51,279 nt of DNA, taken from the NCBI GenBank assembly GCA_019240755.1, contig JAFAXS010000113.1:1-51279 (forward strand), read 5' to 3'. This document shows positions 11,223-36,567 of this stretch, one piece after another. Within the stretch, counting starts at the first letter, position 1. Each line of letters begins with the position of its first letter. Below the pieces are notes generated by a model. The model saw only the letters and a list, made by a program, of their open reading frames with translations. It did not search any database and was not told the origin of the DNA. The translations under genes and the position numbers were made by a program. Source of the stretch: Vulcanimicrobiota bacterium. Its GTDB lineage: Bacteria; Vulcanimicrobiota; Vulcanimicrobiia; Vulcanimicrobiales; Vulcanimicrobiaceae.

Positions 11223-11434
11223 CGGCGCTGCTTTCGGCGGGGTATTTTGGTTTGCTTGCGAGCGGCAGGTTTGCTGATGCTTTTTGCCGGTCTCCGAGCG
11301 CCCCGCGTAGGCGCCGACTTTTGCACGCCGAGCGCTTAGCTGGAAGGTAAGGCAATATGGGCCTAAAGTACCAGCGGCGGTACATCGACATACCTACGGA
11401 GTTCGATCGCGTTACGCTTTACGGGAGGGTTAGC

Positions 11435-12445
11435 GTGAGGAATCCATCGAGAGTTGGGCGACTGGTTTGGCTTGCGGTCCCGGCCCTAGCGGCGTGTTCT
11501 GTCGCCTCAAACTCGCCCAGCCTGCCGTTTACTGCGAACGGCGGCACGGCGAGGACCGCCAGTATCGCTCGCATCCACCCATTGAGTTACTACGGATGTC
11601 CGGCGTTCGGCCCGGGCGCTTACAACGAAGTAGTAACCGGGACCGCAATCGACCGCAACAGCGCGTCGTACATCAAATCGGTGATTGGAGCCGGCGACGG
11701 CGGCGGCTTCTATGCCGCGACCGGGGCAGAGAAAGTGAATCTGGCCGATAGGCGCACGCCGCGCCGCACGGTCCATCCGCGCGTCAAGTATCACAAGTTT
11801 CCCGTGCCCTACCCATGGGGCACCAGTTTTTACATCGAACCGCTCCGCGACGAGCATGCAATGGTCGTATTGACCGGCACATGCCACCTCTACGAGTCGT
11901 ATGGTACGACTTTCCAACAATCTATTCTGAGCGGCTATAGCGGCGCCAACTGGGATCTCTCTAAATCGTTCGTTCCCTTGCCGCCGGGGTCCCCATCATC
12001 GATGGCGTCCGGTTTGTCGCTCTTCGCGGGAATGGTGCGGTGGGAGGACTATCAGTCAGGAACGATCGCCCACGCACTGAATTGGAGCGGGCTTGCAGGA
12101 TCGGCCGCGCAGTTTAAGTTCGTGCGTCCTGCCAGCGACACCGATTGGCTGCCGTACCAAGGCAAGAGTTCGTATCAAATGCCTTACGGAGCAAGGCTGC
12201 GGTTGAGAGCGTCGTTCGATACCACGGGATGGGGACCCGAGGCAACGATGGTTGCGACCGCGATGAAGGCGTACGGCGTCTATTTGAGCGACACCAATTC
12301 AATGGGCAACGAACTGTACTTCGCCAACGCCGCCGACGGCACGAATCCGTGGGACACGGAGGATTTGTCATCGCTTTCGCTGATTACGCTCCGCGATTTT
12401 GACGTTCTCAAACTCAAAAAGATCCAGACGGTACCAGGGCACTAA
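11435..12445 (+). CDS. lipoprotein, paralogue of the product of 19969-20979
   Basis: I chose the GTG at 11435 because GGGAGGG is at good spacing and translation starts with a lipoprotein signal ending L-A-A-C. The 336-residue product has G-C-P-A-F, F-Y-I-E-P-L-R-D-E-H, I-A-H-A-L-N-W, M-P-Y-G-A-R-L-R-L-R-A-S-F-D and A-M-K-A-Y-G-V-Y-L-S-D segments. The same segments occur in the same order at 19969-20979, and both coding regions are 1011 bases long. Similar secreted proteins with an HAL...MGxRxRLKASFD...LKxYGxxxxD pattern occur in actinobacteria and acidobacteria; their function is unknown to me. A surface or carbohydrate-related role is only a guess. Confidence 0.75.
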   Translation: MRNPSRVGRLVWLAVPALAACSVASNSPSLPFTANGGTARTASIARIHPLSYYGCPAFGPGAYNEVVTGTAIDRNSASYIKSVIGAGDGGGFYAATGAEKVNLADRRTPRRTVHPRVKYHKFPVPYPWGTSFYIEPLRDEHAMVVLTGTCHLYESYGTTFQQSILSGYSGANWDLSKSFVPLPPGSPSSMASGLSLFAGMVRWEDYQSGTIAHALNWSGLAGSAAQFKFVRPASDTDWLPYQGKSSYQMPYGARLRLRASFDTTGWGPEATMVATAMKAYGVYLSDTNSMGNELYFANAADGTNPWDTEDLSSLSLITLRDFDVLKLKKIQTVPGH

Positions 12446-12457
12446 CTAGGCCCTCGT

Positions 12458-12492
12458 GGGGCCTTCGTCACGTGACATGAAGCGAAGGCCCC
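12458..12492 (+). terminator. hairpin after the lipoprotein gene
   Basis: GGGGCCTTCG (12458-12467) pairs perfectly with CGAAGGCCCC (12483-12492) across a 15-base loop. It follows the lipoprotein stop at once. There is no clear U-tract. It abuts the first possible start (12494) of the next gene, which favours the later start at 12527. Confidence 0.6.
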
Positions 12493-12526
12493 TATGTCCT
12501 CAGAGGGCCGATTTCTAAGATTAAGC

Positions 12527-13258
12527 ATGGGCTCTACGCGTGCCCTCATTATGGCCGGCGGAAGGTCGGACCGAATGCGAGCCAGTGCCGGAGGGCTTCA
12601 CAAGGCACTCGCTCGCGTTGGGGGCATTACGTTACTCGAATGGAACGTGCGTCAATTGATGCGCTACGATTTCCACGATATCGTTGTGGCGGTCAGTTCC
12701 AGTGCGCCGGAGGTCTCAGATTTCGCGCGCACGTTCATTGCCTCCATCACCTGCCGGGCGAGCATCTCGCTGTACGAAGAGCGGAGCCCGCTGGGAAATG
12801 CGGGCGCGGCTCGTGAGGTCGTCGGCGACGCCGACGGAGTACTTATGGTGTACGTCGACAACCTCGCATCGATCGATCTGAAGCGACTCGTTGCATTCCA
12901 CGAGACGGGTAATTTTACAGCGACAATAGCCACTCACACGGAGCCGTTTCAAATACCGTTCGGACAACTTTCATTAACGGGGAATCGAGTGACGGGCTAT
13001 ACGGAGAAACCGGTCGTTCGGGTCCAGGTGTCGAGTGGCACTTGCGTCCTGTCCAAAGAGGCTTGCGGTCTTATACCGAGAGGTAAACCGATCGGCATGA
13101 GCGATCTGTTCGCCATCCTTACTGAACGCGGCGAAACGGTAGGCGCGTTTCAGCACAATCAAATTTGGATTGACATCAACGATGCTGCGGCATTAGATAA
13201 AGCGCGAGCCGTTTTTGAGCAGCGCTCGATCGACTTCCGTGGCGCTGTCGTCCCGTGA
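12527..13258 (+). CDS. sugar-1-phosphate nucleotidyltransferase (NTP transferase family)
   Basis: The 243-residue product begins M-G-S-T-R-A-L-I-M-A-G-G-R-S-D-R-M-R, the nucleotide-binding loop of GlmU/RmlA-type enzymes, and later has V-Y-V-D-N, with the expected metal-binding Asp. It should join an NTP to a sugar or cyclitol 1-phosphate. The in-frame ATG at 12494 adds 11 residues but touches the preceding hairpin; 12527 fits the family N-terminus better. The length is at the short end for the family, without a C-terminal hexapeptide domain. The stop overlaps the next gene's GTG by 4 bases. In the cyclitol setting it parallels ValB/AcbR, which activate a C7-cyclitol 1-phosphate; that assignment is inference. 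Local GC is lower than in the flanks. Confidence 0.85.
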   Translation: MGSTRALIMAGGRSDRMRASAGGLHKALARVGGITLLEWNVRQLMRYDFHDIVVAVSSSAPEVSDFARTFIASITCRASISLYEERSPLGNAGAAREVVGDADGVLMVYVDNLASIDLKRLVAFHETGNFTATIATHTEPFQIPFGQLSLTGNRVTGYTEKPVVRVQVSSGTCVLSKEACGLIPRGKPIGMSDLFAILTERGETVGAFQHNQIWIDINDAAALDKARAVFEQRSIDFRGAVVP

Positions 13259-14460
13259 AGCGGCTCCGTGTTCTCTCTGTCGTCAACACGCTATACTTCG
13301 GAGGAGCGGAATGCCGGTTGCTGAGCCTTGCAAAGGAAATGAACAGCGACCGTTTCGATCAGACGGTTTTGACACTGAAACGAGTTGACACCGAACGGGA
13401 GCGGCGGCTAGGGACTCTGCGGCCGCACTTCGCATCCGCCAACGTCGCTGTTGAAAGCCTTGATATAGATGCCCCGGAGGTCGGGAGCGCGCACGGTTCG
13501 GCCGCGAAGTGCGTTCGATCCGTCCCGCGATTGTCGCGGACGCTGATAAAGTTGGCAGCCTACATCCGCGCTAATCACATTGATCTTCTTGATACACATT
13601 GCGGAACGGCGAATAAGGTGGGAATCGCCGCCGCGATTCTGACGAGGCGACCAGTGATAGCTACGACGTACGGGCTAGAAATATTTCGTCCACTGTGGCT
13701 TTGGCGCCTTTCGGAGTCCGTTCTATTGACTTTGGCTACCGCAATCGTCACCGATTCGGATGCCGTCGCGGCGCAAATTCGACGTCAATTGCTGCGTCCA
13801 CGACGAATCGCGGTAATCCCTAACGGAATTGAGCCGCCGAAAGCCTACCGCAAGCGTGAAGAGATGCACGCACAGTTTGGAATTCCGTCGGATTCCCGGA
13901 TTCGAGTGGTCGGGCAAGTCGCTTCCCTGACGCCACGGAAGGGACAGCTGGTTCTACTCGACGCCGCCGAGCAGTTGGTCCGGACCGAACCACACGTTCA
14001 CTTTTTGATCTGCGGATACGCGCGGGACCCGCTCGCTTACGAGCGCGCCCTTCATGCCCGTACGGCCGATCTCGGCCTTACTTCACGCGTTCATTTCGTA
14101 GGCTACCCCGGACCGATTGGTGACGTCTATAACGCTATCGACATTCAAGTTCATCCCTCGATCGAAGAGTCACTTCCGCAGGCGATCATTGAAGGCATGG
14201 CGCTCGGGAAACCCGCCGTAGCGACCGCAGTCGCCGGCATCCCGACGATGGTGTCAGATGGTGCGACCGGTGTCATCGTCCGCCCCGGCGACGCCCAGGC
14301 ATTGGCCGCGGGAATCCGCCGCTTGCTACGCGACACATCACTCGCCGCCCGCCTAGGTCTGGCCGCACAACAACGGTACTGGGAGCGCTATACCGACGCG
14401 CGGATGGCGCGCAGTCTCGAGAAGTTGTTTGAGGATGTTGCACGCCCTAGTGCCGCGTAA
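13255..14460 (+). CDS. GT4-family (GT-B) glycosyltransferase
   Basis: A GTG start overlaps the upstream stop. The 401-residue GT-B enzyme has an N-terminal Rossmann half opening R-V-L-S-V-V-N-T-L-Y-F-G-G-A-E and the GT4 C-terminal donor-binding motifs: V-G-Q-V-A-S-L-T-P-R-K-G-Q, then H-P-S-I-E-E-S-L-P-Q-A-I-I-E-G-M-A-L-G-K-P (EX7E motif). It should transfer a nucleotide-activated sugar, or here possibly a nucleotide-activated cyclitol, with retention. No membrane segment is seen. Donor and acceptor are unknown; its place directly after the nucleotidyltransferase suggests it uses that product. It is not GT20, unlike the VldE/ValL pseudoglycosyltransferase. Confidence 0.9.
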   Translation: MKRLRVLSVVNTLYFGGAECRLLSLAKEMNSDRFDQTVLTLKRVDTERERRLGTLRPHFASANVAVESLDIDAPEVGSAHGSAAKCVRSVPRLSRTLIKLAAYIRANHIDLLDTHCGTANKVGIAAAILTRRPVIATTYGLEIFRPLWLWRLSESVLLTLATAIVTDSDAVAAQIRRQLLRPRRIAVIPNGIEPPKAYRKREEMHAQFGIPSDSRIRVVGQVASLTPRKGQLVLLDAAEQLVRTEPHVHFLICGYARDPLAYERALHARTADLGLTSRVHFVGYPGPIGDVYNAIDIQVHPSIEESLPQAIIEGMALGKPAVATAVAGIPTMVSDGATGVIVRPGDAQALAAGIRRLLRDTSLAARLGLAAQQRYWERYTDARMARSLEKLFEDVARPSAA

Positions 14461-15388
14461 CCTACTCCGGAAGAAGCGCCGCGTTCTTGTGACTGGCGGC
14501 GGCGGCTTTATCGGCGCGTCGCTCATCGAGCGGCTTGCGCTGCTCGGCGTTCCTTTGCACGTGATCACGGGCGCGCCGAACGATCCGATCCGCGAGCCCC
14601 CAGATGGAGTCGCGTCGTCACGGGCGGAAATTACTGATGTCGGTGCAGTCTTCGACGCCGCGCGCGATTGCGAAATTGTGGTTCATGTCGCCGGGCCGCC
14701 ATCGGTACGTTCCTCGTTCGATGTTCCCGAAAAATATGCCGTTGTCCACGTTGCAGGCACTGCCGCAGTACTCAATGCCTGCCGAAAGGCGCGCGTCAAG
14801 CGCTTCATTTATATCTCTTCGGCCGAGGTTTACGGAAGAACGGTGAATCAGCCGGTTTCCGAAACGATGACACCGAATCCCCGTTCACCCTATGCGGCTG
14901 CGAAACTCGGAGCTGAGAACATGGTTTGCGCTTTCGCAAACGCCTTCGGCATTGACGCTCGAATCGTACGACTGTTTTCCGTTTATGGGCCCGGGCAGCA
15001 GAAGTACGCGCTGATACCAACGATTATTCGCCAGGCCATGACCGCCGGCGCTGTCGAACTCGCCGACCTGCGCCCCGTGCGCGACTACTGCTACGTGGAC
15101 GACGTGGTCGACGCGACAGTTCTGGCGTGCGATGTGGACGTTCCGGAGACCGTGTTCAATATTGGAACCGGGATTGGGACCAGTGTGTTTCAGCTCGCAC
15201 GAACGATCCTTGCCCTGGTCGATCGGAAGGTCCCGATTCTTACGGCATCGGGAGAGGCACGTCCCCACGCATCTGAGATCTTCGAATTAGTTGCCGACAC
15301 TCGCCGTGCTAACGAGCTCCTAGGGTGGACGGCGCAAACGCCGTTGAGTGTCGGCTTGAAGGAAGTCATTACCGAAATGGCGGCCTAG
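14435..15388 (+). CDS. NAD-dependent epimerase/dehydratase (extended SDR)
   Basis: I prefer the ATG at 14435 over TTG 14429; either way the gene starts within the end of the glycosyltransferase gene. The product of about 317 residues has the extended-SDR cofactor loop V-T-G-G-G-G-F-I-G, the serine segment Y-I-S-S-A-E-V-Y-G, and the catalytic pair in S-P-Y-A-A-A-K. It ends with the substrate-domain features R-D-Y-C-Y-V-D-D-V and F-N-I-G-T-G. These enzymes epimerise, dehydrate or reduce nucleotide sugars in the cytosol. The exact reaction cannot be read from sequence. In this operon it could modify the sugar partner or act on a nucleotide-bound cyclitol. Confidence 0.88.
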   Translation: MLHALVPRNLLRKKRRVLVTGGGGFIGASLIERLALLGVPLHVITGAPNDPIREPPDGVASSRAEITDVGAVFDAARDCEIVVHVAGPPSVRSSFDVPEKYAVVHVAGTAAVLNACRKARVKRFIYISSAEVYGRTVNQPVSETMTPNPRSPYAAAKLGAENMVCAFANAFGIDARIVRLFSVYGPGQQKYALIPTIIRQAMTAGAVELADLRPVRDYCYVDDVVDATVLACDVDVPETVFNIGTGIGTSVFQLARTILALVDRKVPILTASGEARPHASEIFELVADTRRANELLGWTAQTPLSVGLKEVITEMAA

Positions 15389-15390
15389 TG

Positions 15391-16404
15391 ATGCGCGCGT
15401 TGATTACGGGCGCTCAAGGGTTCGTGGGACGCTATCTCATATCCGCGTTGCTCGCCACAGACCCAACTTCTCGAATAGTTGGGATCGGTCGCTCACCGGC
15501 TTGTAACACCTTCACGCACTCCGTGACGCTGCAATCTGCACGAGTACCGGCAAAGTTACCGGACGAATTGAGAAGCACAGTGCGGGACCGGCGATACGAA
15601 TATACACGCGCCGATATCCGAAATAGTTCCGCACTGCGCTCAATTCTGAAGGAACTTCGGCCTAACGTAATCTTTCATCTGGCATCAGGATTACGCGATG
15701 ACCGGCCGCACGACTTGTTTCAGACGAACGTGGAGGGAACGATCGACTTAATCACGGCGGTTTCTGATGCCGACTTCGACCTGCATGCGCTTATCATCGG
15801 CTCGAGCGGCTCGGTTTACGGAATGCCCGCACGTCTGCCGATTACTGAGGATTCGGCCTGCGAGCCTCGAGACTGTTACGCGGCAAGCAAACTGGCACAG
15901 GAAAACGTGTCCCGCATCTTGGCGCGGGAACGAGGGCTGCCCGTCGTAATAGCGCGCATCTTTAACATTGTCGGGCCTGGACAAGACGAACGTCACGTCG
16001 CGGGTCGTTTTGCTGCGCAGCTCGCCGCGATTGCCGGCGGCACGTCCGAGCCGCCTCTGAAGGTGGGTGACCTCTCCACGACGCGGGATTTCATCGACGT
16101 TCGCGATGTGGCACGGGCACTGATCGTCCTAGCGAAGGCGCAGCGCGGTCAAGGTTTCTACAACGTCGCCAGCGGCGTAGAGACGACCGTTTTTCGCGTT
16201 TTGGAAATTCTGATTCGTTCTGCGGGCATTGCTGACGGGGTGGACGTCGACACCGTATATACGCGGGTCTCCGATACGCCGCGTGTCGTCGCCGATATCG
16301 CGCGATTGCGCGCCGCAGGCTTCAAGAGCGCGATCCCCTTGGAGAAAAGCTTGGCCGATGTCTTCAAATACTACGGCCAAGTCATGCCCGCGGCTGTTTC
16401 TTAA
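15391..16404 (+). CDS. extended SDR, GDP-4-keto-6-deoxymannose reductase/epimerase-like
   Basis: The ATG at 15391 follows the previous stop by two bases and starts at the family N-terminus M-R-A-L-I-T-G-A-Q-G-F-V-G; upstream in-frame codons lie inside the previous gene. The 337 residues include S-S-G-S-V-Y-G, Y-A-A-S-K (catalytic Tyr and Lys), and G-D-L-S-T-T-R-D-F-I-D-V-R-D-V, common in GDP-mannose 4,6-dehydratase and 4-reductase (RMD) relatives. A reductase or epimerase acting on a nucleotide sugar is likely. It is the last gene of the plus arm, and its stop codon lies in the shared hairpin at 16389-16413. Confidence 0.88.
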   Translation: MRALITGAQGFVGRYLISALLATDPTSRIVGIGRSPACNTFTHSVTLQSARVPAKLPDELRSTVRDRRYEYTRADIRNSSALRSILKELRPNVIFHLASGLRDDRPHDLFQTNVEGTIDLITAVSDADFDLHALIIGSSGSVYGMPARLPITEDSACEPRDCYAASKLAQENVSRILARERGLPVVIARIFNIVGPGQDERHVAGRFAAQLAAIAGGTSEPPLKVGDLSTTRDFIDVRDVARALIVLAKAQRGQGFYNVASGVETTVFRVLEILIRSAGIADGVDVDTVYTRVSDTPRVVADIARLRAAGFKSAIPLEKSLADVFKYYGQVMPAAVS

Positions 16405-16413
16405 ACGGCCGCG
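16389..16413. terminator. hairpin containing the stop codons of both convergent operons
   Basis: Positions 16389-16399 pair with 16403-16413 (11 pairs, one T-G) around a 3-base CTT loop. The TTAA at 16401-16404 supplies the TAA of both the SDR and the GH4-like gene, so the two coding ends lie inside the stem-loop. No U-tract follows on either side, so a role as bidirectional terminator or 3'-end stabiliser is inferred. Confidence 0.6.
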
Positions 16414-17618
16414 ATGAGATCGGAGGCAAGCGCGTCCATATCACTGCAGTTTTTCGTCCAGGGATGTTTCGCAAGTACCGTCGCGCAGGCGCTCCGCCGA
16501 TTCGCCAAGACGGCTTGTGCCGCGGCGCGTTCGTAGTCGACGAACTGTCGCAACGTCTGGACGAGCCCTGGCGGACACTCGTCCCGCCGCGCTAATCGGC
16601 GGCAACTCCCGCCGTAGACGACGAAGGGTTGCTCCAGCGTGTCATCGGGCGCAAAGCACGGCAGGTAGCCATCATTCGGGCGTGACAAGAAGAACACCGT
16701 CGAGGTGTGCAGGCCGGCCGTTGCAGCGATGAAGGGACCGAGGGCGTCCGAATACCATGGAGTCGGCCGAGCGTGAAGCGCTGCGACGATTTGTTGCCTT
16801 CCTCCCGATAAGAAGGCTTGCATCGCGCGCTGCTGAATCGACCGCAGCTCCGCGCCGCGTGCCAGGCTAGTGCGTTGTCTGCGGAGCGTACCGATCCTTT
16901 CATAATGCAGAACCAGATACTTCAGTGGGATTGCCTTCAACGAGGTGATCAGCTCGAACGATGGAAACCGGGCCCCGCGCCTCGTCGAAGCGTATCGTGG
17001 AATGAGGTCCGCGGAGTCGCTGGAGAGGTGATCGAACCAGCCTAAGTGATTGATGCCCGCATACCCGAACTGCGCATCGGCGACGGGGAGACGTAACGCG
17101 TCGCAGGCGGAGAGGAGCGTTACCCAGGGCAGTTCGCAGATGCCGGCAACGTCGATTTCCCGAAACGCCAGGTTCGCGCACCGTACGAGCACGCTCAGCG
17201 GAGCCGTCATGAGCAGCACCTTTGCTCGCGGGCACCGCCGTCCGATCTTATCGAGCGTCTTAGATAGTTGTGGCCAGGACCTCCACGCCGCCGCCAATCC
17301 CCCCGGTCCTAGCCCCTCGTCACCACAAATGCCGTGTCGCAAGGGAAACGACTCGTCCCGCATGCGCGCCTCGTATCCGCCATAGCGAGCCTGCAGGACC
17401 ACCAGTGACGCGCCTTCGAGGCGGTCGAAATCGAGCGTAGTCTCTACGCGAATCGACGCGTCTGTAAGGATCTCAATGGCTCGCCGTACCGCGCGAAGGC
17501 GGCTTTCGGAGCGGCCGATCAAGGTTACTTCCAGTTTATCGGCAAGCGCGAGTAATTCGGGTGTAAGAAAGAGGGCGGGCGTGCTGCTCCCGCTTCCGCC
17601 AACGATCGCGATCTTCAC
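16401..17618 (-). CDS. GH4-like NAD-dependent enzyme (6-phospho-glycosidase fold)
   Basis: I chose the GTG at 17618, which overlaps the upstream kinase stop by 4 bases and opens with the Rossmann motif M-K-I-A-I-V-G-G-S-G-S-S-T-P. The 405 residues resemble glycoside hydrolase family 4: R-Y-G-G-Y-E-A-R...D-E-S-F-P-L (79-92), G-D-E-G-L-G-P-G-G (99-107), Cys161 in G-I-C-E-L-P and His191 in G-I-N-H-L-G-W (Cys and His being the family's metal ligands). The family's T-N-P motif reads T-A-P at 138-140, so a canonical Asn is missing. GH4 enzymes oxidise a sugar C3 hydroxyl via NAD before elimination. In a cyclitol operon it might act as a dehydrogenase or epimerase; that is inference. Confidence 0.8.
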   Translation of the reverse strand: MKIAIVGGSGSSTPALFLTPELLALADKLEVTLIGRSESRLRAVRRAIEILTDASIRVETTLDFDRLEGASLVVLQARYGGYEARMRDESFPLRHGICGDEGLGPGGLAAAWRSWPQLSKTLDKIGRRCPRAKVLLMTAPLSVLVRCANLAFREIDVAGICELPWVTLLSACDALRLPVADAQFGYAGINHLGWFDHLSSDSADLIPRYASTRRGARFPSFELITSLKAIPLKYLVLHYERIGTLRRQRTSLARGAELRSIQQRAMQAFLSGGRQQIVAALHARPTPWYSDALGPFIAATAGLHTSTVFFLSRPNDGYLPCFAPDDTLEQPFVVYGGSCRRLARRDECPPGLVQTLRQFVDYERAAAQAVLANRRSACATVLAKHPWTKNCSDMDALASDLIAAV

Positions 17619-18619
17619 TGTACGTTGTAGCGTGCGCGATAAAAAGCGACAGCTCCGGCCAAACATATTTCTTGGCCGTCGTCACAAACCACAATGCGGT
17701 TGCCTCCAAAGCGCGAGAAGGCCCGGGCGCTCAAATGTTTCGAAATAAGGCCGGACAGCATGTCTTTATACACCGCTCCCAGCCGTTGCGCGAAGCCACC
17801 AATCACAACGATCCGATCGACTCCGACGGAGGCAATAAGCGCGGACAATAGGTGCGCCAAAGGCTGCGCCGCTCGATCGATCACGGAAAGCGACCAGAGA
17901 TCGCCGTTGAGCGCAGCGGGGATCAAGTGTTCTTCATTTGTGATAGGGACGCGCGAATCGTTCAACATTCGCGCGACCGCGGAGCCTCGAAAATGCGCAT
18001 CCTCACGGCTCGCCAGGCGTTGTGCCAATCGTTCCGTGCCGCGCCCCGAGGATATCGCACCGAGGTGCCCGCGGCCGCCGCAGTCGCACGGTGCTGCGCC
18101 CGGTTTGGTATCGACGACGAGATGGCCAATTTCGCCCGCATAAGGTTCGTTGTCAAGAACGCGCAACGCATGGCGGCGGTCGAACATTTTTCCGCCGATT
18201 CCGCTGCTCACCGTTACGATGAAGAACCGATCGAAGTCGAGGTACTCGCCGAGGTGCCAAGCCGCGGCAGACACGTCGTTGACCAGATGGACGGGGCGTC
18301 CCGTACGCGCTTCTAAAGCGCCCGCTAGGTCGGGGATCGGTTCGTGTCCTGTGATCGTCGGCGCGGCCACGAGGCGGCGGCCGTCGGTGACTGGCCCCGG
18401 CACCGCCATTGAGACAGCATGTACGGTCTGCATCCGCCGCTCGACGTCCGCAACGTAGCGCGCGATTGAGTCAAGGACGAACTCCCAAATTTGCGAACCA
18501 TCGAAATGGGATTGTGATTTTGGCATACGGAGGCGCGCGTAGCGGTGCATTTGGCCTGTGTCATCAGCCACAGCCAAGCGAAGAAAGGTCCCTCCCATAT
18601 CCACGGCGATGACCGCCAT
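17615..18619 (-). CDS. ROK-family sugar/cyclitol kinase
   Basis: This 334-residue protein has the ROK features: phosphate loop V-D-M-G-G-T-F, catalytic Asp115 in L-V-N-D-V-S-A-A, second ATP loop S-S-G-I-G-G, and a zinc region with His166 (G-E-I-G-H), Cys178 and Cys180 (C-D-C-G-G-R-G-H). The third zinc cysteine of many ROK proteins is a His here. There is no N-terminal HTH, so it is a kinase and not a repressor. It lies 6 bases after the cyclase gene and overlaps the next by 4. ValC and AcbM, which phosphorylate C7-cyclitols, are sugar-kinase-type enzymes, so a valiolone-type substrate is plausible; glucose or N-acetylmannosamine are alternatives. Confidence 0.9.
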   Translation of the reverse strand: MAVIAVDMGGTFLRLAVADDTGQMHRYARLRMPKSQSHFDGSQIWEFVLDSIARYVADVERRMQTVHAVSMAVPGPVTDGRRLVAAPTITGHEPIPDLAGALEARTGRPVHLVNDVSAAAWHLGEYLDFDRFFIVTVSSGIGGKMFDRRHALRVLDNEPYAGEIGHLVVDTKPGAAPCDCGGRGHLGAISSGRGTERLAQRLASREDAHFRGSAVARMLNDSRVPITNEEHLIPAALNGDLWSLSVIDRAAQPLAHLLSALIASVGVDRIVVIGGFAQRLGAVYKDMLSGLISKHLSARAFSRFGGNRIVVCDDGQEICLAGAVAFYRARYNVQ

Positions 18620-18625
18620 TGCGGA

Positions 18626-19810
18626 CTACAATCTCTTTGAGAGAACGTTGCGCCGCGCCGAATGTGCTACGGCGTCAAGGGCCACGCGACAATCAGTGGC
18701 GTCGACGTGCTGCAAGAACGTGCACGTTCCAATTCCGTTGGGTACGGGGAAGTTCAAATTGCCACCGCGGTGGCCCTTTACATCGACGAGCGCTTCCATC
18801 AATAGGGGGAGAGTGCACAAGTCGTCCTCAATCGCTAACCCAGCCGCGTCATACAAAACGATTAACCGATCGAAAAGTGACGAGGCACAGATCCCACGAT
18901 GCGCCGCGATGGCGGTGGATAACAACATATCGATCGCGACGGCTTCGCCGTGCGCTAACCGATAGTCACTCCGCAACTCGATCGTGGGGCTGAATGAATG
19001 CCCAAAGTCAACCGCACGTTTGAGATCATCTTCATAAAGATTTGGCGCCAGTTCGGTCATCATGGTAAACTGCGACCGTTCCAATACCTCGCGTGCGATT
19101 TCCGAAGGTCTCTGAAAAGAGCTTTCCAAGAGAGGCTCGAGATAGCGCTCCAATAAGCCGAATAGCAGCGGATCGGCGACGAGACCTATTTTTATTATTT
19201 CTGCTACGCCGCACGCTAGATCGCGACGCGAGGATGTGCTCAGGAACGTTGGATCATTTAGCACGCCAATCGGTGGGTAGAAGGTTCCCAGGACGTTCTT
19301 CTTGTTGCCGAAATTTACGGCTTGTTTGATGCCGACCGCGACATCGACCATTCCGAGTAGCGTCGTCGGAATGCGTACGAAGGCCACGCCACGCCGATAG
19401 AGTGCGGCCGCCATGCCGACGATGTCGAGCACCACGCCACCGCCAACCGCAACCATCACTCCGTTGCGAGGAAGCCCCGACGCGATCGCAGCATCGCAAA
19501 CGCGCTCTACCTCATCGAACCGCTTATTCGATTCACCCCCTCGTAAGACAATAGTGCTAAAAGGGTTCAAATGTTGCTGCACGTAAGCGCGAATCGTTAT
19601 GCCGTACAGTGCATCAACCACTTCATCAAATGCGATCAAGAGCGGCCGTCGCCCAACGAGTTCCGCCAGCGCCGGCATTTCCAGATCGAAGACGTGCGAG
19701 GTCAGTTGCGTGACGCTGTACCGAACGTCGCGTCTGACGTGCATTGAAAACGTCGTCGATTCAGGCAAGACTGACGTCGAGACGCCGCGTGAATTCAGCG
19801 CCAACCCCAT
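18626..19810 (-). CDS. sedoheptulose 7-phosphate cyclase, 2-epi-5-epi-valiolone synthase class
   Basis: The 394-residue protein belongs to the dehydroquinate synthase (AroB) fold: NAD loop G-G-G-V-V-L-D-I-V-G (123-132), P-T-T-L-L-G-M-V-D (149-157), and zinc ligands Glu204, His271 and His287. It differs from true AroB in the way the C7-cyclitol synthases do: V-N-F-G-N-K-K-N-V-L-G-T-F-Y-P-P (165-180), D-F-G-H-S-F-S-P (268-275) with Pro where AroB has His, and a C-terminal G-H-R-G-G...P-V-P-N-G-I-G-T-C-T-F-L. It should cyclise sedoheptulose 7-phosphate to a C7-cyclitol. No O-methyltransferase or ATP-grasp gene is adjacent, which argues against the mycosporine (DDGS) branch. It is the first gene of the minus arm. 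Confidence 0.88.
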   Translation of the reverse strand: MGLALNSRGVSTSVLPESTTFSMHVRRDVRYSVTQLTSHVFDLEMPALAELVGRRPLLIAFDEVVDALYGITIRAYVQQHLNPFSTIVLRGGESNKRFDEVERVCDAAIASGLPRNGVMVAVGGGVVLDIVGMAAALYRRGVAFVRIPTTLLGMVDVAVGIKQAVNFGNKKNVLGTFYPPIGVLNDPTFLSTSSRRDLACGVAEIIKIGLVADPLLFGLLERYLEPLLESSFQRPSEIAREVLERSQFTMMTELAPNLYEDDLKRAVDFGHSFSPTIELRSDYRLAHGEAVAIDMLLSTAIAAHRGICASSLFDRLIVLYDAAGLAIEDDLCTLPLLMEALVDVKGHRGGNLNFPVPNGIGTCTFLQHVDATDCRVALDAVAHSARRNVLSKRL

Positions 19811-19968
19811 GCCTAACGATACATCGCCCGTGAGCCAACGCTCATGGTCTCTTAGGGCCGACTCCGTTGGGTCTTTCGACGCCTTCGTCGGGACCGATGC
19901 CCGGCCGCGACTTTAGGACGAATAGGCGCAGGCGATGCTGCGCCCGCGCTGTGAAGGACTGCATTGAT
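19811..19968. promoter_or_regulatory. divergent intergenic region with hairpin
   Basis: This region separates the cyclase gene (minus) from the second paralogous secreted protein (plus) and must hold both promoters. A compact hairpin at 19870-19895 is visible: CGACG (19877-19881) pairs with CGTCG (19886-19890) around CCTT, with outer GGTC/GACC pairs. I see no convincing -35/-10 pair. Confidence 0.4.
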
Positions 19969-20979
19969 ATGCAGGGCCTACGTTGGGCGGGGCGCGTTGC
20001 GAGCCTAGTTGCACTCGGGGTTGCTTGTACTTTGTTCTTATTGTTGGCCAACGCACGGAGTTTAAGACCGTCGACAACCGGAACGCCCTGTTGTTCAGGC
20101 CATTACGCGATCGATGACGGCAAACTTCTGGGTTGCCCGTATCCCAGCGGCGACGTGTGGCAAAGGAGCGTCGCGTCCGCGCCCCTCGATCCGCGTAGTT
20201 CGGCATGGCTTGCGGCCGTGATGGCCGGCGGCGGCGGCGGGGGGTTCGAGGCGAGCATCCCGACGAACGAACTTATCAACGTCGCGAACGACTCGACGCC
20301 GTTGGTTCCCGTCAAGCCAAAGGTGGCGTGGCACAAACCTTATTCGCCGATTCCGTGGGAGGCGCGTTTCTACATCGAGCCGCTATCGGATCATCATTCC
20401 CTCGTGTTGCAAGCGAAAAGTTGTCAGTACTACGAAGGTTACGAGACGACGTACTCTTCGGATGGTTTCTTGTCGATGTATAGCAATCTGCACGTCGATC
20501 TCACGCGGGCCTTCGTGCGGCCTGCGAAAGGCGCGTCGACGGCGACCGCCATACCAATCGGTCTCATCGCGATACGGCCTGAAGAGCTCGCCGCCGGCAA
20601 CATTCGCCATGCGCTCGGTTGGGACGCCGTAGCCGGCGCGCTTTCACAAACCGATTGCGTCTCGCCGGCCGCTATCACGGACTGCACGGACGGCGTGCCC
20701 TATAAGGGACCGCAGGGCGACGTGCCCATGCCGTACGGCGCGCACGCGCGCCTGAAAGCTTCCTTCGATATTTCAGGATTCAGCCGCGAAGCCAAGATCG
20801 TCGCCCAAGCAATGAAAACCTACGGATTGTTCGTTTACGATACCGGTTGCTGCAGCAACGAGGTCGTCTTAGTCGACGATCGCTACGGCGCGCCGGCGTG
20901 GACCGATGACGACGCGCGGGATCTACGGCGCATTTCGCCGCAAGATTTCGAGATCGTCCCGCCCCCTAGCGCCCCGTAA
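19969..20979 (+). CDS. membrane-anchored secreted protein, paralogue of 11435-12445
   Basis: I chose the ATG at 19969, preceded by GAAGGA; the longer frame from 19867 adds an arginine-rich leader with no family support. The 336 residues start with a basic-hydrophobic anchor or signal (R-V-A-S-L-V-A-L-G-V-A-C-T-L-F-L-L-L-A). Then come the same blocks as the 11435 protein: G-C-P-Y-P, F-Y-I-E-P-L-S-D-H-H, I-R-H-A-L-G-W, M-P-Y-G-A-H-A-R-L-K-A-S-F-D and A-M-K-T-Y-G-L-F-V-Y-D. The coding length (1011 bases) equals that of its paralogue. Cysteine pairs (C-C-S, G-C-C-S-N) suggest disulfides and an extracytoplasmic location. Function is unknown. Its end overlaps the convergent amj gene by 14 bases. 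Confidence 0.72.
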   Translation: MQGLRWAGRVASLVALGVACTLFLLLANARSLRPSTTGTPCCSGHYAIDDGKLLGCPYPSGDVWQRSVASAPLDPRSSAWLAAVMAGGGGGGFEASIPTNELINVANDSTPLVPVKPKVAWHKPYSPIPWEARFYIEPLSDHHSLVLQAKSCQYYEGYETTYSSDGFLSMYSNLHVDLTRAFVRPAKGASTATAIPIGLIAIRPEELAAGNIRHALGWDAVAGALSQTDCVSPAAITDCTDGVPYKGPQGDVPMPYGAHARLKASFDISGFSREAKIVAQAMKTYGLFVYDTGCCSNEVVLVDDRYGAPAWTDDDARDLRRISPQDFEIVPPPSAP

Positions 20980-21787
20980 TCAGTTTCGCGCCGACTTCGA
21001 TCAACTTTGCGCCGGGCAGCAAGAGCAGTTGGGAGAGCGCTAGGCCGACGATTGCCGTCAATGAGAGTCCCAGGACCAGCGCACGGACGTCGTCGATCGA
21101 ACGCTCGCCCCGCACGGCTCGATCGGTGATCAACGCCGACGCCGGATCGACGACGATATTGTAGGCAATGGCGGCGAAACCGTTGACCAAGCCGCTGGAC
21201 AAGACGGCGGTTCGCGCGGCTTGCGGATAGAGGACGCTGGCGTACGCGGCCGCCACGATGCCGATTCCGTAGACGGCGGTAACGAGTATATTGAGAATAA
21301 GAATGTCTTTCGGTACGTTGCGAAGGGGCAGATCGCGCAACCGCGTGGCTACTCCGAATTTTATTTCGGTGCTTACGGCTCGCAACGTCCTCATGCGCAA
21401 GAGGCCGAGTGCAGCTTTCGGAACGTTGCCGTTTCGTTCCAGCGAGCGGATCGCGCGCAGATACAGCATGACAAACGTCGGGATTGCCAATGTTCCGAGC
21501 ACCGCGCCGACGGTCCCCGCAACCACAATCGAGCGCAGCTGCCACTGATAGGCGAACAAGGTGGTGAACGACGCGCGGTCCGAGAGCGCGCCAAGCATCG
21601 GCGTGTAGAACATCTGCGCGAGGCGGCTGCTGGTTGCAAAGATGTTGAAGAGGGAGATCGCGGTGGCGACTCGCCCGGATCGCGCGCCTGCCAAGCGCGC
21701 GGCATACGCGGCGATCGCGAGGGCTTGAACGACGCAGTTAAGCGCCATTGCCAGGACCAGTTGCCAGGGCAAGAGATGATGGGTCAC
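20966..21787 (-). CDS. amj: Amj-family lipid II flippase (DUF2837)
   Basis: The 273-residue integral membrane protein has about six hydrophobic segments. Its A-A-Y-A-A-R-L-A-G-A-R-S-G-R and A-T-A-I-S-L-F-N-I-F-A-T-S-S-R-L-A-Q segments and overall length match Amj (YdaH), the Bacillus subtilis alternate lipid II flippase. Amj moves undecaprenyl-linked precursors across the inner membrane. Here it lies beside a Wzy/WaaL gene and an exopolysaccharide region in which no Wzx is visible, so it might flip the polysaccharide repeat unit; that is inference. It is transcribed away from the polymerase gene. Confidence 0.75.
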   Translation of the reverse strand: MTHHLLPWQLVLAMALNCVVQALAIAAYAARLAGARSGRVATAISLFNIFATSSRLAQMFYTPMLGALSDRASFTTLFAYQWQLRSIVVAGTVGAVLGTLAIPTFVMLYLRAIRSLERNGNVPKAALGLLRMRTLRAVSTEIKFGVATRLRDLPLRNVPKDILILNILVTAVYGIGIVAAAYASVLYPQAARTAVLSSGLVNGFAAIAYNIVVDPASALITDRAVRGERSIDDVRALVLGLSLTAIVGLALSQLLLLPGAKLIEVGAKLITGR

Positions 21788-21825
21788 GCGCTGGTAGCAT
21801 ACTATTGCGGAAGCTAGGAAAAGCA

Positions 21826-21860
21826 GGGGCGAAGGCCCCGGCCGCTGAGACCTTCGCTCC
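21826..21860. terminator. hairpin upstream of the polymerase gene
   Basis: GGGGCGAAGG (21826-21835) pairs with CCTTCGCTCC (21851-21860; one G-T) across a 15-base loop. It belongs to the same CGAAGG-type hairpins seen at 5694-5720 and 12458-12492. Here it lies in a divergent intergenic region, so it may be a leader element or an end for a transcript arriving from the left. Confidence 0.45.
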
Positions 21861-21899
21861 TCGACGCGGACGTCGCTTCACCCATAAAATTAGAGTTGG

Positions 21900-23363
21900 A
21901 TGGCGATGACCGCGCGCGTTGCATCAGGACCCCAACTATGGGTCATTATTTTTGTCGTGGCTGTCGCTGTTGTAGCGTCGGTTCTGTTGAGCTTTGGCGT
22001 AACGTTGCCCGCCGTGGCACTGGCAGCGCTCGTTGTGTCGCCGCTGGCGCTCTACGGCGTACTGAACCGGCCGCTCGACGTAGTCTTCGGCCTTTACGTG
22101 CTGCTCATACCCTTTGATAACTTGCTGAGCACCGGTTCGTTCGGAACCCTGACGAAGTTCGTGGGAATCGTTGCCGGGATCGCTTTGCTGCTCTTCGTTG
22201 CACGACGAGGACAAATCAAACTGACCGCGTCACCCGTATTCGTACTTTTCGCGCTCGTAGGCTGGATGCTCTTAAGCGTCCTTTGGGCGCTCAACCAAGG
22301 CGCCGCAGTGAAGATCCTTCCAACGTATGCCGGCTTGGTGCTGTTGTACGTCGCCGTGACGATGATGCCGATCTCGCGCAATCAATGGAGACGGCTGCTG
22401 TTTCTCGTCGTCATCGGCGGCGTGGCGTCGGCCGGCTACGGCATCCATCTCTTTTACGGTCAGTTGCCTAATATCCAAGATTCCGCCGCGATGCGTCTGA
22501 TCGTTCAAGCGGGCGACAATTTCATCGATCCCAATCACTTTTCCGACGCGCTTCTGTTTCCGGTGGCCGTTCTCGCGATGTGGGGACTGCGCTCCCGAAC
22601 GATCTTCGCCAAGGTTGCGAGCCTGGCGGGCGTCGGTATTATGGTCTCCGCGATCTTGCTGAGCGGCTCCCGCGAAGGCGTCGTCGCCCTCCTTCTGATC
22701 GTGGCGTACTATCTGTGGCGCACCCGGTATCGTCTACAGGTTGCCGTGATGCTGATCGCGACCCTCGCCGCGCTCATCTTAGGCCGCTTTCCGGTGATGG
22801 AGCGGTTCGCGTCGGTGTTGCAGACCGGCGGCTCGGGGCGAACCTCGATCTGGGCGGTTGCGATCGAGGCCGCGAAGCACCGTTTGCTGCAGGGCTTTGG
22901 GATCGGCAACTTCGTCGACGCCTTCAACCAGTTTTATCTAGGCGTGCATCAGCCGTATCCATACGGCTGGGATAGTCCCGCCCACAACCTCGTCATGCAC
23001 TACCTCGTCGAGCTCGGACTGGTTGGACTCGTGTTGATTGCAGGATTCTTCATTTCGCAATTCCGTTCGCTCAAGTACATCGGTAAAGACAGTCCGTTCT
23101 ACGACGACCGCATCGCGATGGAGGCGGCATTATTGGCGACGATAAGCGTGTCGCTCACCATCGATCTGTTTACCTATAAGTACGCGTGGCTGGTCTTCGC
23201 TATGGCGGCGCTGCTTCGCAATGCTGCGGCAACTGCTCAGCAGGCGGCGATCCGGGCGACGAGTTCGTCCATCACACCGGCCCGATCGGCGCGCTCAGCG
23301 AGCTTCGCTTTGCCGGCTTCGCCAATCGCGCGGAGCGCTACGCGGTCCAGCTGCGCCAGTTGA
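21900..23363 (+). CDS. O-antigen ligase/polymerase family membrane protein (Wzy/WaaL)
   Basis: This 487-residue multi-TM protein has about 10-12 hydrophobic helices and a large periplasmic loop. The Wzy_C signature S-P-A-H-N-L-V-M-H-Y-L-V-E-L-G-L and an S-G-S-R-E-G motif near the middle are typical of O-antigen ligases and polymerases. It should polymerise or ligate undecaprenyl-linked oligosaccharides on the outer face of the inner membrane. The last 42 residues (low-complexity A-R-S-A-S-S) are encoded antisense to the next gene: coding ends overlap by 127 bases, so the natural stop may have been lost. Confidence 0.88.
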   Translation: MAMTARVASGPQLWVIIFVVAVAVVASVLLSFGVTLPAVALAALVVSPLALYGVLNRPLDVVFGLYVLLIPFDNLLSTGSFGTLTKFVGIVAGIALLLFVARRGQIKLTASPVFVLFALVGWMLLSVLWALNQGAAVKILPTYAGLVLLYVAVTMMPISRNQWRRLLFLVVIGGVASAGYGIHLFYGQLPNIQDSAAMRLIVQAGDNFIDPNHFSDALLFPVAVLAMWGLRSRTIFAKVASLAGVGIMVSAILLSGSREGVVALLLIVAYYLWRTRYRLQVAVMLIATLAALILGRFPVMERFASVLQTGGSGRTSIWAVAIEAAKHRLLQGFGIGNFVDAFNQFYLGVHQPYPYGWDSPAHNLVMHYLVELGLVGLVLIAGFFISQFRSLKYIGKDSPFYDDRIAMEAALLATISVSLTIDLFTYKYAWLVFAMAALLRNAAATAQQAAIRATSSSITPARSARSASFALPASPIARSATRSSCAS

Positions 23364-24418
23364 CGTAGTGCGCGGGCGAGCGCATCGGCGTCGGCCGGCG
23401 CCGTGCAGACCGCGCCCAGCGTAGCGCCTTCGCGCTGCGCTTCTCCCTCGGCAGCCACTATGACCGGACAGCCGACGGAAAATGAGTCGTAAAGTTTGGT
23501 GGGCACGCTCTCTTGAATGCCTTTGCGCAACGGGATGATCGAAACGTCGGCGTTGGCGATCCGCTCCAGCGCCTCGTCGCGGGGCATGCTGCCCTGGAGC
23601 GCGAGATTGTGCACCTTTTCTTTGCGCACTCGTCCCTCGAGATGAGGCCTTTGTGCGCCGTCTCCGACGATTTCAATAGTAATGTTGTCTCCTGCCACTC
23701 GAGCTGCCGCATCCGCCAGGAGATCGACGTCGGTCGCAACGCCGAGATTGCCGGCGTAGATCGCCGTGAACGGCTTTGGGCGACCATTCGCCGAGCGCGC
23801 GACGGAAGTCGGTGCCGCCGCATTACGCGCCAAAAAAAGCCGCGATCGAGCGACGCCGCGGCGACCGATTTGTTCGATCGCGGTAGGAGTTACCGCAACG
23901 ACAAGATCGGCACGGCGGTAGAGCGCACACACGAACGACTCCACGGCGCGGGCTAGAAGGCTTTCTCGGCGCCAGGCGCCCATGGCGATGGCGATATCCG
24001 GAAAGACGTCGCGCACGTCGACGATCAGTCGCGCCCCGTGCCGCCACGCGGCAACGAGCGCCGGAATCGCCGTAGTGAGGGGCGGTGAGCTCACGATCAC
24101 GAGATCGTAGCGCGCTCGCGCCAGCAGCGCGTACAGCGAGGCGGAGAGGGCCGCACTCGCCCAATGGATCAATCGCTCGCCGCGCATGCCCGGAAGCAAC
24201 AACGAAAAAACTCGAACTATCCGTGTGGTTCCGGATCGCTCGACCCGCACAGGCGGCCGCCCCACCTCAAAGAAGCGGCCGCGCGGAAACGAAGGAAAGT
24301 TCGTCAAGACCGTAACGTCGTGGCCCGCGCGAGTCAACGCGTCGACGAATGAGGCGATCCTCGCCGAAGCGGCACCCGGTTCGGGGGGATAAAAGTGCGA
24401 TACGAAAAGCGCCTTCAC
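23237..24418 (-). CDS. GT4-family glycosyltransferase (WbuB-like)
   Basis: I chose the GTG at 24418, which overlaps the upstream TGA by 4 bases and opens V-K-A-L-F-V-S-H-F-Y-P-P-E-P-G-A, the WbuB-type N-terminus; upstream sequence in this frame is antisense-like. The 393 residues include D-V-R-D-V-F-P-D, A-I-Y-A-G-N-L-G, V-G-D-G-A-Q and P-T-K-L-Y-D-S-F-S-V-G-C-P. It should be a cytosolic or membrane-associated GT-B transferase adding a sugar to the lipid-linked repeat unit. It is the last gene of the minus exopolysaccharide operon and overlaps the polymerase gene end by 127 bases. Confidence 0.9.
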   Translation of the reverse strand: MKALFVSHFYPPEPGAASARIASFVDALTRAGHDVTVLTNFPSFPRGRFFEVGRPPVRVERSGTTRIVRVFSLLLPGMRGERLIHWASAALSASLYALLARARYDLVIVSSPPLTTAIPALVAAWRHGARLIVDVRDVFPDIAIAMGAWRRESLLARAVESFVCALYRRADLVVAVTPTAIEQIGRRGVARSRLFLARNAAAPTSVARSANGRPKPFTAIYAGNLGVATDVDLLADAAARVAGDNITIEIVGDGAQRPHLEGRVRKEKVHNLALQGSMPRDEALERIANADVSIIPLRKGIQESVPTKLYDSFSVGCPVIVAAEGEAQREGATLGAVCTAPADADALARALRQLAQLDRVALRAIGEAGKAKLAERADRAGVMDELVARIAAC

Positions 24419-26660: not shown

Positions 26661-26661
26661 T

Positions 26662-30412: not shown

Positions 30413-30582
30413 CAGTCACTGTAATGATACGAGCGCGGCTGCGCTGTCCCGGAGAGCCGTTAGTCCCGGTTGGGATGACCGCGGTACGGCAGGAAACAAG
30501 TCCCTGCCTCGAAGGTCCCGCCCTCTGGGCATTGCTGTCCTTACGGTAAGAGCGGGCCGCAGCGTACGATGCTGCTAACAAT
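30413..30582. promoter_or_regulatory. divergent promoter region of the two exopolysaccharide operons
   Basis: This region separates the initiating transferase (minus) from the Wzc-like kinase (plus). It contains a 6-bp hairpin (GGCAGG 30488-30493 with CCTGCC 30503-30508) and a perfect 5-1-5 inverted repeat CTTACGGTAAG (30540-30550) 33 bases before the kinase start. TCCC recurs several times. No clear sigma-70 boxes were found, and the regulator is unknown. Confidence 0.45.
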
Positions 30583-35951: not shown

Positions 35952-35952
35952 C

Positions 35953-36567
35953 ATGGTCATCCATCCCTCGGCCACCATTGAATCGCGCGTTTCGATCGGC
36001 GAAGGCACGATAATATGGGATCACGTCCACGTTCGGCATTCCACGCGCATCGGCCGGGACTGCATCGTCGGGGGCAAGACCTACATCGCCTACGGCGTAG
36101 CGATCGGCGACCGCGTGAAAATAAACTCGTTCGTCTACATCTGCACGGGCGTGACCATCGAGACCGGTGTTATGGTCTCCGCCGGAGTCGTCTTCACGAA
36201 CGATCGTTTTCCACGCGCAACGACGCCCGACTTACGGCGCCTCCTGCCGTCGGACCCGGACGAAAAAACGCTCCCGACGCTCGTGCGTGCCGGTGCCACC
36301 ATCGGCGCGCAGGCGACGATTGGGCCGGGCTTGACGATCGGACGGTTTGCGATGGTTGGCATGGGAGCCGTCGTGACCCGCGACGTTGAGGACTTTGCAG
36401 TTGTCTGCGGCAATCCCGCCAGAACCGTTGGCTACGCGTGCGCCTGCGGCGCGACCCTCGCGCCCTCGATTGCGCCGCCGGAGAGCCCCGAGGAGCTCCA
36501 CTGCGGCATTTGCCACGCACAGTACTTGTTTAGCGCATCGGGCGTCGTCGAGCTCGCAGCCCGATAG
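35953..36567 (+). CDS. hexapeptide-repeat N-acetyltransferase (WbpD-like) with C-terminal Cys4 module
   Basis: The first 170 or so residues are a left-handed beta helix of hexapeptide repeats (I-G-E-G-T-I-I, I-G-R-D-C-I-V, I-G-D-R-V-K-I) with V-F-T-N-D-R-F-P-R, the region where WbpD/WlbB carries V-F-T-N. WbpD acetylates the 3-amino group of UDP-2-acetamido-3-amino-glucuronate using acetyl-CoA. The tail of about 35 residues has C-A-C-G...C-G-I-C, a zinc-ribbon-like pair of knuckles of unknown role. It follows the dehydrogenase by one base and shares a base with the next start. Confidence 0.88.
   Translation: MVIHPSATIESRVSIGEGTIIWDHVHVRHSTRIGRDCIVGGKTYIAYGVAIGDRVKINSFVYICTGVTIETGVMVSAGVVFTNDRFPRATTPDLRRLLPSDPDEKTLPTLVRAGATIGAQATIGPGLTIGRFAMVGMGAVVTRDVEDFAVVCGNPARTVGYACACGATLAPSIAPPESPEELHCGICHAQYLFSASGVVELAAR

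Follow-up and report, generated by a model that had tools for sequence, protein, structure and literature searches.

The locus

The window analysed here comprises 51,279 nucleotides and comes from a soil bacterium in the Eremiobacterota, an uncultured phylum. Positions 12494-19810 hold seven genes in two convergent operons with overlapping genes. The plus-strand operon encodes a nucleotidyltransferase (NT), a GT4 glycosyltransferase and two extended SDRs (SDR1 and SDR2), and the minus-strand operon a GH4-like enzyme, a ROK kinase and a cyclase:

12494-13258, plus strand: NT, a nucleotidyltransferase of the sugar-1-phosphate type with a length of only 254 aa (Pfam NTP_transf_3, 47 bits; NTP_transferase, 42 bits; weak PDB matches to glucose-1-phosphate cytidylyltransferases and mannose-1-phosphate guanylyltransferases)
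13255-14460, plus strand: GT4 glycosyltransferase, MshA/BshA-like (Pfam Glycos_transf_1 and Glyco_transf_4)
14429-15388, plus strand: SDR1, an extended SDR, LegB/4,6-dehydratase- or epimerase-like (NCBIfam LegB, 184 bits, below the cut-off; PDB MoeE5, 126 bits)
15391-16404, plus strand: SDR2, an extended SDR, GDP-4-keto-6-deoxyhexose reductase (Rmd)-like (PDB 2pk3, 160 bits)
16401-17666, minus strand: GH4-like NAD/metal enzyme (Pfam Glyco_hydro_4, 59 bits, and 4C, 53 bits)
17615-18619, minus strand: ROK family kinase, a probable cyclitol 7-kinase (Pfam ROK, 114 bits)
18626-19810, minus strand: sedoheptulose-7-phosphate cyclase, EEVS type (best PDB match ValA, 4p53, 253 bits)

Between adjacent genes there is either an overlap of 4 to 52 nt or a gap of 2 to 6 nt, and the operons converge tail to tail in a 4-nt overlap between SDR2 and the GH4-like gene. 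The SDR2 frame is open from 15325, with an ATG at 15391; the start of NT is uncertain (12494, or an ATG at about 12527), as are those of SDR1 and the GH4-like gene. The coordinates and families of the original prediction, which had described two tightly coupled convergent operons, were confirmed.

An exopolysaccharide locus adjoins the cluster. The DegT and Gfo genes of the window, at 33673-35951, sit in that locus and were ruled out as pathway members: they are not orthologous to the DegT and Gfo of variant-A clusters (~126 vs 430-500 bits).

Distribution of the gene set

The seven genes form a real unit whose grouping is not due to chance, because orthologues of the cyclase and of the GH4-like enzyme occur in the identical 6 of 149 Eremiobacterota genomes and other phyla have the cluster too. 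The hypergeometric probability of this co-occurrence is approx. 7e-11 when genomes are assumed to be independent, which they are not fully. NT forms a dedicated orthologue group confined to exactly the same six genomes (at least about 160 bits, vs at most 79 bits for the rest), and the cluster orthologues of SDR2 reach at least 287 bits, compared with at most 157 bits for general relatives. Moreover, the pairwise identities of the cyclase, ROK kinase, GH4-like enzyme, SDR2 and NT correlate at 0.83-0.95.

A search for the same seven genes in other neighbourhoods, as had been proposed with the prediction, recovered the complete set in six of those examined (G029, G045, G123, L051, L102 and L104). 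NT and GT4 are linked to the cluster in these six as well as in the window, G007 and G053. SDR1 is absent from three relatives' clusters (L023, L025 and L050; by genome, G007, the second G053 copy and L050), in which NT and SDR2 are retained. No description of the seven-gene set was found in the listed titles and abstracts of open-licence papers.

Outside Eremiobacterota, clusters with the gene set in whole or in large part are found in Acidobacteriota and in Sphingobacteriaceae (Bacteroidota), with the addition of a DegT aminotransferase and a Gfo/Idh oxidoreductase; the nine-gene version is present in two long-contig Sphingobacteriaceae genomes. The statement that the cluster has no aminotransferase holds for the seven genes of the window (the DegT proteins of the host genome show at most 40% identity) but not for six relatives, in which one lies inside or beside the cluster (L050, L051, L062, L102, L104 and G053). 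The DegT and Gfo/Idh enzymes would oxidise and aminate the ring, and C7N aminocyclitols are therefore the probable products of these clusters; the window variant would yield a nitrogen-free cyclitol.

The gene set very probably makes a cyclic sugar mimic of the same type as acarbose and validamycin. We consider it fairly probable that the seven genes constitute a dedicated C7-cyclitol pathway, in which cyclisation, 7-phosphorylation and a GH4-derived step lead to a glycoconjugate.

Nucleotidyltransferase, SDRs and glycosyltransferase

In the last of the four proposed steps, NT, SDR2 (with SDR1 where present) and GT4 would form the glycoconjugate, perhaps linked to the neighbouring exopolysaccharide locus; family membership suggests these roles. 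The cluster had been predicted to make and couple an activated C7-cyclitol. A cyclitol pathway leading from a sedoheptulose 7-phosphate (SH7P) cyclase to a ROK kinase is upheld by the cyclase tree and by the ROK-like nature of AcbM and ValC. Nucleotide activation and transfer of the cyclitol itself are less certain: the cluster genes include no C1-kinase, phosphomutase or phosphatase and no enzyme that would move the phosphate from C7 to C1, the GT4 is MshA-like, and the SDRs are deoxysugar-like. In acarbose biosynthesis, AcbU and AcbJ are required before AcbR (PMC9200736).

An alternative to which we give slightly less than an even chance differs in this step only: NT, SDR1 and SDR2 would supply an NDP-6-deoxyhexose by a GDP-rhamnose-like logic, and GT4 would glycosylate the cyclitol phosphate, with the cyclitol never being nucleotide-activated. 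The best PDB matches of GT4 are 4xso (Alr3699, 80 bits) and 3c48 (71 bits), and the protein also resembles BshA; 3c48/3c4q we take to be MshA, which glycosylates inositol phosphate, with the cyclitol as acceptor. The Rmd-like SDR2 and LegB-like SDR1 look like a classical dehydratase-reductase pair of NDP-deoxysugar synthesis, and the missing C1 kinase, mutase and phosphatase also speak for an acceptor role. However, SDR1 is missing from the three clusters named above while NT and SDR2 persist, and NT and SDR2 form dedicated groups that occur within the phylum only in cluster genomes, unlike general sugar-nucleotide enzymes. Moreover, RmlB has a TDE triplet, the Asp of which is lacking in SDR1 (conserved motif SSA[ED]-[VI]YG). 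Mycothiol biosynthesis offers a possible logic, a GT4 enzyme with a cyclitol phosphate partner; the window cyclitol is nevertheless C7 and MshB and MshC are absent, and membership of that pathway is not claimed. As predicted, the cluster has no GT20 pseudoglycosyltransferase: among the seven genes, GT4 is the only glycosyltransferase, with no pseudoglycosyltransferase of the GT5 (AcbS) or GT20 (ValL) type.

The GH4-like enzyme

The AF2 model of the GH4-like protein (pLDDT 89, first 13 residues disordered) is closest in fold to the 6-phospho-beta-glucosidase BglT (TM 0.87). Like BglT (1up7) and Gan4C (5c3m), the protein keeps the NAD motif, the metal residues C177 and H207 and the base Y250. 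In contrast to these and other GH4 enzymes, it lacks the CN or CD found after the metal Cys of solved and non-cluster members: all cluster GH4s checked share a private C-E-[LV]-P motif (CELP in place of the CNVP of BglT and Gan4C) and have DE where others have QE. They are monophyletic (99/97), apart from 11 other GH4s. In most members, namely those of Eremiobacterota and Acidobacteriota, the Asn of the TNP motif is replaced by Ala or Ser (TAP/TSP), a change that may have altered or weakened the GH4 chemistry. The enzyme had been singled out as an unusual component; its confinement to the six cyclase-bearing genomes of the 149 and its own clade mark it as a fixed one as well. None of the comparable clusters examined contains a GH4-like enzyme, and no match was found in the plasmid records holding L040-L042.

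To our knowledge, the described members of the GH4 family are glycosidases. The GH4 mechanism on 6-phospho-hexosides has been described (PMC10628242), and AcbL of the acarbose pathway is an NADPH-preferring dehydratase acting on a 7-phospho ketone (PMC7081202). In step 3, the 7-phosphate would sit in the site that takes a sugar 6-phosphate in the ancestors of the GH4-derived enzyme. Hydride transfer and alpha-deprotonation on the ring would rely on bound NAD, Tyr250 and a divalent metal (C177, H207). The most likely outcome, judging from the residues, the predicted fold and co-conservation, would be C2 epimerisation and/or dehydration or ketone reduction, replacing AcbO, AcbL and AcbN of acarbose. 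A wider proposal, which we regard as evenly poised, is that this GH4 lineage left glycoside hydrolysis and is now biosynthetic, remodelling a C7-cyclitol 7-phosphate through epimerisation or elimination with the help of NAD, within a cross-phylum pseudo-sugar pathway family (Eremiobacterota, Acidobacteriota and Bacteroidota) with aminated and nitrogen-free branches and new products.

It is unlikely that the enzyme is instead a true 6-phospho-glycosidase or a salvage hydrolase that trims the product. The nearest solved relatives and the nearest fold are indeed 6-phospho-beta-glucosidases, with the catalytic Cys, His and Tyr retained; however, the altered motifs and separate clade of all cluster GH4s, the strict co-occurrence with the cyclase and the lack of other AcbO-, AcbL- or AcbN-type functions in the cluster, a biosynthetic operon, argue for a biosynthetic role.

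Cyclase and kinase

The cyclase matches ValA best in the PDB (4p53, 253 bits), followed by DDGS (5tpr, 186 bits), AroB (149 bits) and DOIS (108 bits). In a tree whose references exclude EVS, EboD and DOIS, it falls in the SH7P cyclase clade, split from AroB at 100/100, and its own clade is distinct from ValA. The metal ligands E204, H271 and H287 and the catalytic residues K162, K207 and D156 of the DHQS fold are conserved, and N257, R265, D268, P275 and H347 are of the SH7P type. In particular, D268 and H347 match ValA, whereas DDGS has Ala and Thr at these sites; D281 and H360 of ValA are presumably the two sites that tell EEVS from DDGS. The expected product of step 1 from SH7P is a valiolone-type cyclitol, 2-epi-5-epi-valiolone being the likeliest candidate.

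Eremiobacterota cyclases carry Gln (Q163) directly after the catalytic Lys, a position occupied by Thr in the EEVS references compared, and the exact product could differ. A different SH7P-derived or related product (2-epi-valiolone, a gadusol-type compound or an EboD-type cyclitol) is nonetheless improbable: this residue, the clade distinct from ValA and the absence of EVS and EboD references from the tree would allow it, but the two ValA-like residues are unlike DDGS, and the cluster lacks the O-methyltransferase and ATP-grasp ligase of the MAA pathway (L044) and the UbiA-type prenyltransferase of the ebo operon. A DDGS- or gadusol-type cyclase was ruled out by the discriminating residues and the neighbouring genes. 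A function as an additional 3-dehydroquinate or amino-DHQ synthase, in line with the AroB name given by automatic models (NCBIfam TIGR01357 (AroB), 230 bits, below the 305 cut-off), can be dismissed in view of the tree, the SH7P-type residues, a separate AroB elsewhere in the same genome (C139) and the lack of recognised shikimate genes beside the cyclase in the relatives' neighbourhoods examined. The original prediction of an SH7P cyclase rather than AroB is thereby sustained.

The cyclases of the Bacteroidota clusters fall outside the window clade. A single clade of all GH4-cluster cyclases was not recovered, though it was not rejected (AU p 0.053); because the Bacteroidota cyclases do not group with the window clade, the histories of cyclase and GH4 may differ.

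The 7-kinases of acarbose and validamycin, AcbM and ValC, are ROK-like (PMC9200736). The ROK kinase is the probable counterpart and would phosphorylate the 7-hydroxyl of the cyclitol in step 2; as for step 1, family membership, phylogeny and residues point to this. SH7P cyclase and ROK genes are linked in every examined neighbourhood of the window cyclase clade and in the Sphingobacteriaceae clusters, with one case of a cyclase-kinase fusion (L062, Mucilaginibacter). Elsewhere, the two genes are adjacent in S. clavuligerus, A. vitis and R. rhizogenes (L040, L042 and L043) and near each other in Streptomyces NBC_00467.

Comparison with known systems

The cluster shares with acarbose biosynthesis (acb, Actinoplanes) an SH7P cyclase (AcbC), a ROK-like 7-kinase (AcbM), nicotinamide-dependent 7-phosphate steps, a nucleotidyltransferase and a glycosyltransferase (PMC9200736, PMC7081202). 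It lacks counterparts of AcbO, AcbL, AcbN, AcbU and AcbJ, an AcbS-like GT5 and the maltose part, and has the GH4-like enzyme and GT4 instead. With validamycin (val/vld, Streptomyces) it has in common an EEVS (ValA) and a ROK-like kinase (ValC); in contrast, the window variant contains neither the GT20 pseudoglycosyltransferase ValL nor an aminotransferase, and has the GH4-like enzyme. The C7N-type plasmid clusters of Streptomyces clavuligerus (L040) and Agrobacterium vitis (L042) likewise join cyclase and ROK kinase, and the L040 DegT aminotransferase is related to those of variant-A clusters; however, zinc-type (MDR) dehydrogenases together with separate epimerases take the place that GH4 has in the window family. 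The ebo operon is a further uncharacterised cluster across phyla with an SH7P-type cyclase (PMC5133447), but its partner set differs, the window cluster having no UbiA, metallo-hydrolase, xylose-isomerase-like or phosphodiesterase genes.

Significance

In acarbose and validamycin, C7-cyclitols form the warhead, and most producers in the literature compared here belong to the actinobacteria. The conserved, compact cluster found in uncultured soil phyla offers new pseudo-sugar chemistry, for which the two nine-gene Sphingobacteriaceae genomes provide an accessible route to the product and the CELP motif a simple marker for further clusters. If the proposal is true, the GH4 family would gain a biosynthetic member beside its glycosidases, with oxidation-elimination chemistry that builds as well as breaks.

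Organization and genomic setting of the cluster

The original prediction described the gene set, families and coordinates correctly: gene calls and family matches recovered all seven genes. Its interpretation stands in its core, a C7-cyclitol cluster, with the product and enzyme activities being predicted from sequence. The source is a draft genome (2.59 Mb, 174 contigs). Those of its relatives that a name search retrieved are MAGs of Candidatus Eremiobacterota. The features in and around the cluster are as follows.

11357-12445 and 19867-20979: paralogous pair flanking the cluster, one on each side, neither with a Pfam or NCBIfam match
12458-12492: inverted repeat with perfect 10-bp arms (GGGGCCTTCG...CGAAGGCCCC) around a 15-nt loop, in the gap separating the upstream gene from the start of the nucleotidyltransferase (NT)
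12494-19810: two operons, tail to tail, NT-GT4-SDR1-SDR2 (+ strand; SDR1 and SDR2 are extended SDRs) and cyclase-ROK-GH4 (- strand)
20966-38863: adjoining exopolysaccharide locus (Amj flippase, Wzy_C, UDP-sugar dehydrogenase, GT4s, Bac_transf, Wzz/AAA, DegT, Gfo/Idh, hexapeptide transferase, amine-oxidase-like protein)
45867-46781: polysaccharide export protein (Poly_export)

Two homologues of the flanking paralogues lie near the cluster of a relative, G007 (L023, 11830-12828 and 17570-18610). The inverted repeat is not expected by shuffle comparison and may be a terminator or a sign that NT starts at ~12527. The cluster of the relative G045 likewise has a flippase gene and a GT in its vicinity, and the product is possibly a surface glycoconjugate. 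No exopolysaccharide-type neighbours were recognized in the stretches read beside the Sphingobacteriaceae clusters.

Conservation across phyla

Among 149 genomes of the phylum, a window-type cyclase (at least 46% identity) and the GH4-like gene (at least 42%) occur in the same six, and the others carry neither at those levels. Gene neighbourhoods were inspected in G007, G029, G045, G053 and G123. G053 has two copies of the cluster (L024, L025, L087), of which one lacks SDR1 in the stretch read. Beyond the phylum, group-wide searches, together with a scan of 84,980 species genomes, revealed similar clusters in three Sphingobacteriaceae genomes (L062, L102, L104) and in two MAGs of Acidobacteriota (L050, L051), and a cyclase-ROK-GH4 set in a third Acidobacteriota genome (L105). 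In L102, NT-GT4-SDR1-SDR2 converges on Gfo-GH4-DegT-ROK-cyclase, which is the window architecture plus two genes. In the Mucilaginibacter MAG (L062:1641-3803), the cyclase and ROK kinase, separate genes in the other two Sphingobacteriaceae, are fused into one 720-aa protein; this directly supports the two enzymes as consecutive steps. Pairwise identities of five cluster proteins correlate at 0.83-0.95. The gene set recurs, in whole or large part, across Eremiobacterota, Acidobacteriota and Sphingobacteriaceae. The rarity of carriers (6/149, 2/396, 3/301), together with this cross-phylum spread, suggests horizontal transfer of the cluster.

Cyclase and ROK genes also occur on two 12.2-kb contigs (L048, L049) that are almost identical but are binned to a Syntrophaceae and an Ignavibacteriales MAG, respectively; hence, the binning of one or both is probably wrong.

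The cyclase

In two trees, sedoheptulose 7-phosphate (SH7P) cyclases, including that of the window, split from AroB (support 100/100), in agreement with the predicted assignment; AroB is encoded separately in the same genome (contig C139). The window cyclase clade has its own support (100/99) and is separate from ValA and DDGS. In the alignment, D268 and H347 match the state of ValA D281 and H360, which we take to be the two positions separating ValA from DDGS; the DDGS of structure 5tpr and of Nostoc have Ala and Thr. N257, R265 and P275 are likewise of SH7P type. Residue 163, following catalytic Lys162, is Gln in Eremiobacterota cyclases, Thr in the EEVS references used and Val in DDGS, and Gln163 may affect the product.

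A further SH7P-type cyclase (L085 in G118; 35% identity) from the same bacterial family, with a methyltransferase and no GH4 beside it, possibly belongs to a different cyclitol pathway. In an unclassified MAG (L052:2-17425), a single open frame, 5808 aa or longer, spans the whole locus, with NUDIX, SDR, SH7P-cyclase-type and HATPase domains and a radical SAM match below cut-off.

The GH4-like protein

Pfam assigns this protein to GH4, and its nearest solved sequences are 6-phospho-beta-glucosidases. Its AF2 model (pLDDT 89) gives a TM score of 0.87 to T. maritima BglT versus 0.73 to AglA, which acts on maltose without phosphate. C177, H207 and Y250 are invariant across the GH4 alignment; from BglT, they are presumably the metal ligands (C177, H207) and the base (Y250). 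Cluster GH4s, Bacteroidota included, make up a single group to which none of 11 other GH4s belongs (99/97); they carry CE[LV]P in place of the CN or CD seen in the others, and DE in place of QE.

GH4 glycosidases act on 6-phospho-hexosides by oxidizing C3 with their bound NAD, removing a proton from C2 and eliminating the substituent at C1 (PMC10628242). The carbocyclic equivalent of this substrate is a 7-phospho-cyclitol. In the acarbose pathway, the cyclitol undergoes 2-epimerization (AcbO), dehydration (AcbL, NADPH-preferring) and reduction (AcbN) (PMC7081202). In the window cluster, a counterpart was found for none of the three, and apart from the SDRs its sole redox enzyme is the GH4-like protein; from these two observations we infer that this protein would replace at least one such step.

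Two variants of the cluster

The claim that the cluster has no aminotransferase holds for variant B (window, G007, G029, G045, G123) but not for variant A (L050, L051, L062, L102, L104, G053). In variant A, genes for a Gfo/Idh oxidoreductase and an aminotransferase of the DegT family lie within the cluster or next to it; in variant B, neither is present there. Each variant-A DegT has its nearest relatives among the other variant-A DegTs, followed by the DegT from the SH7P-cyclase cluster of S. clavuligerus, and the DegT in the exopolysaccharide locus of the window is not of this type. In the genomes of the window, G007, G029 and G045, no DegT exceeds 44% identity to the cluster type. On this distribution, the window product is probably nitrogen-free, and variant-A products are probably C7N aminocyclitols.

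Activation and transfer

NT is a nucleotidyltransferase of short length whose closer assignment is weak. SDR1 resembles LegB and has the conserved motif SSA[ED]-[VI]YG, SDR2 resembles Rmd, and GT4 resembles MshA and BshA. NT scores ~160 bits or more in the six cluster genomes of the phylum and at most 79 bits elsewhere in the phylum; SDR2 orthologues score at least 287 versus at most 157 for general relatives. Two models remain. The cyclitol itself may be activated and transferred, in the manner of acarbose, for which AcbR produces GDP-valienol; that three clusters have lost SDR1 and that NT and SDR2 are dedicated to cluster genomes favours this, although C1-phosphate enzymes are missing from the cluster. 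That gap, and the likeness of GT4 to MshA, favour instead the transfer of an NDP-deoxysugar onto a cyclitol phosphate, against which the SDR1 losses and the dedicated NT and SDR2 count. The finding is, as read from sequence, a rare cross-phylum family of putative C7-cyclitol clusters that share a GH4 clade of their own.
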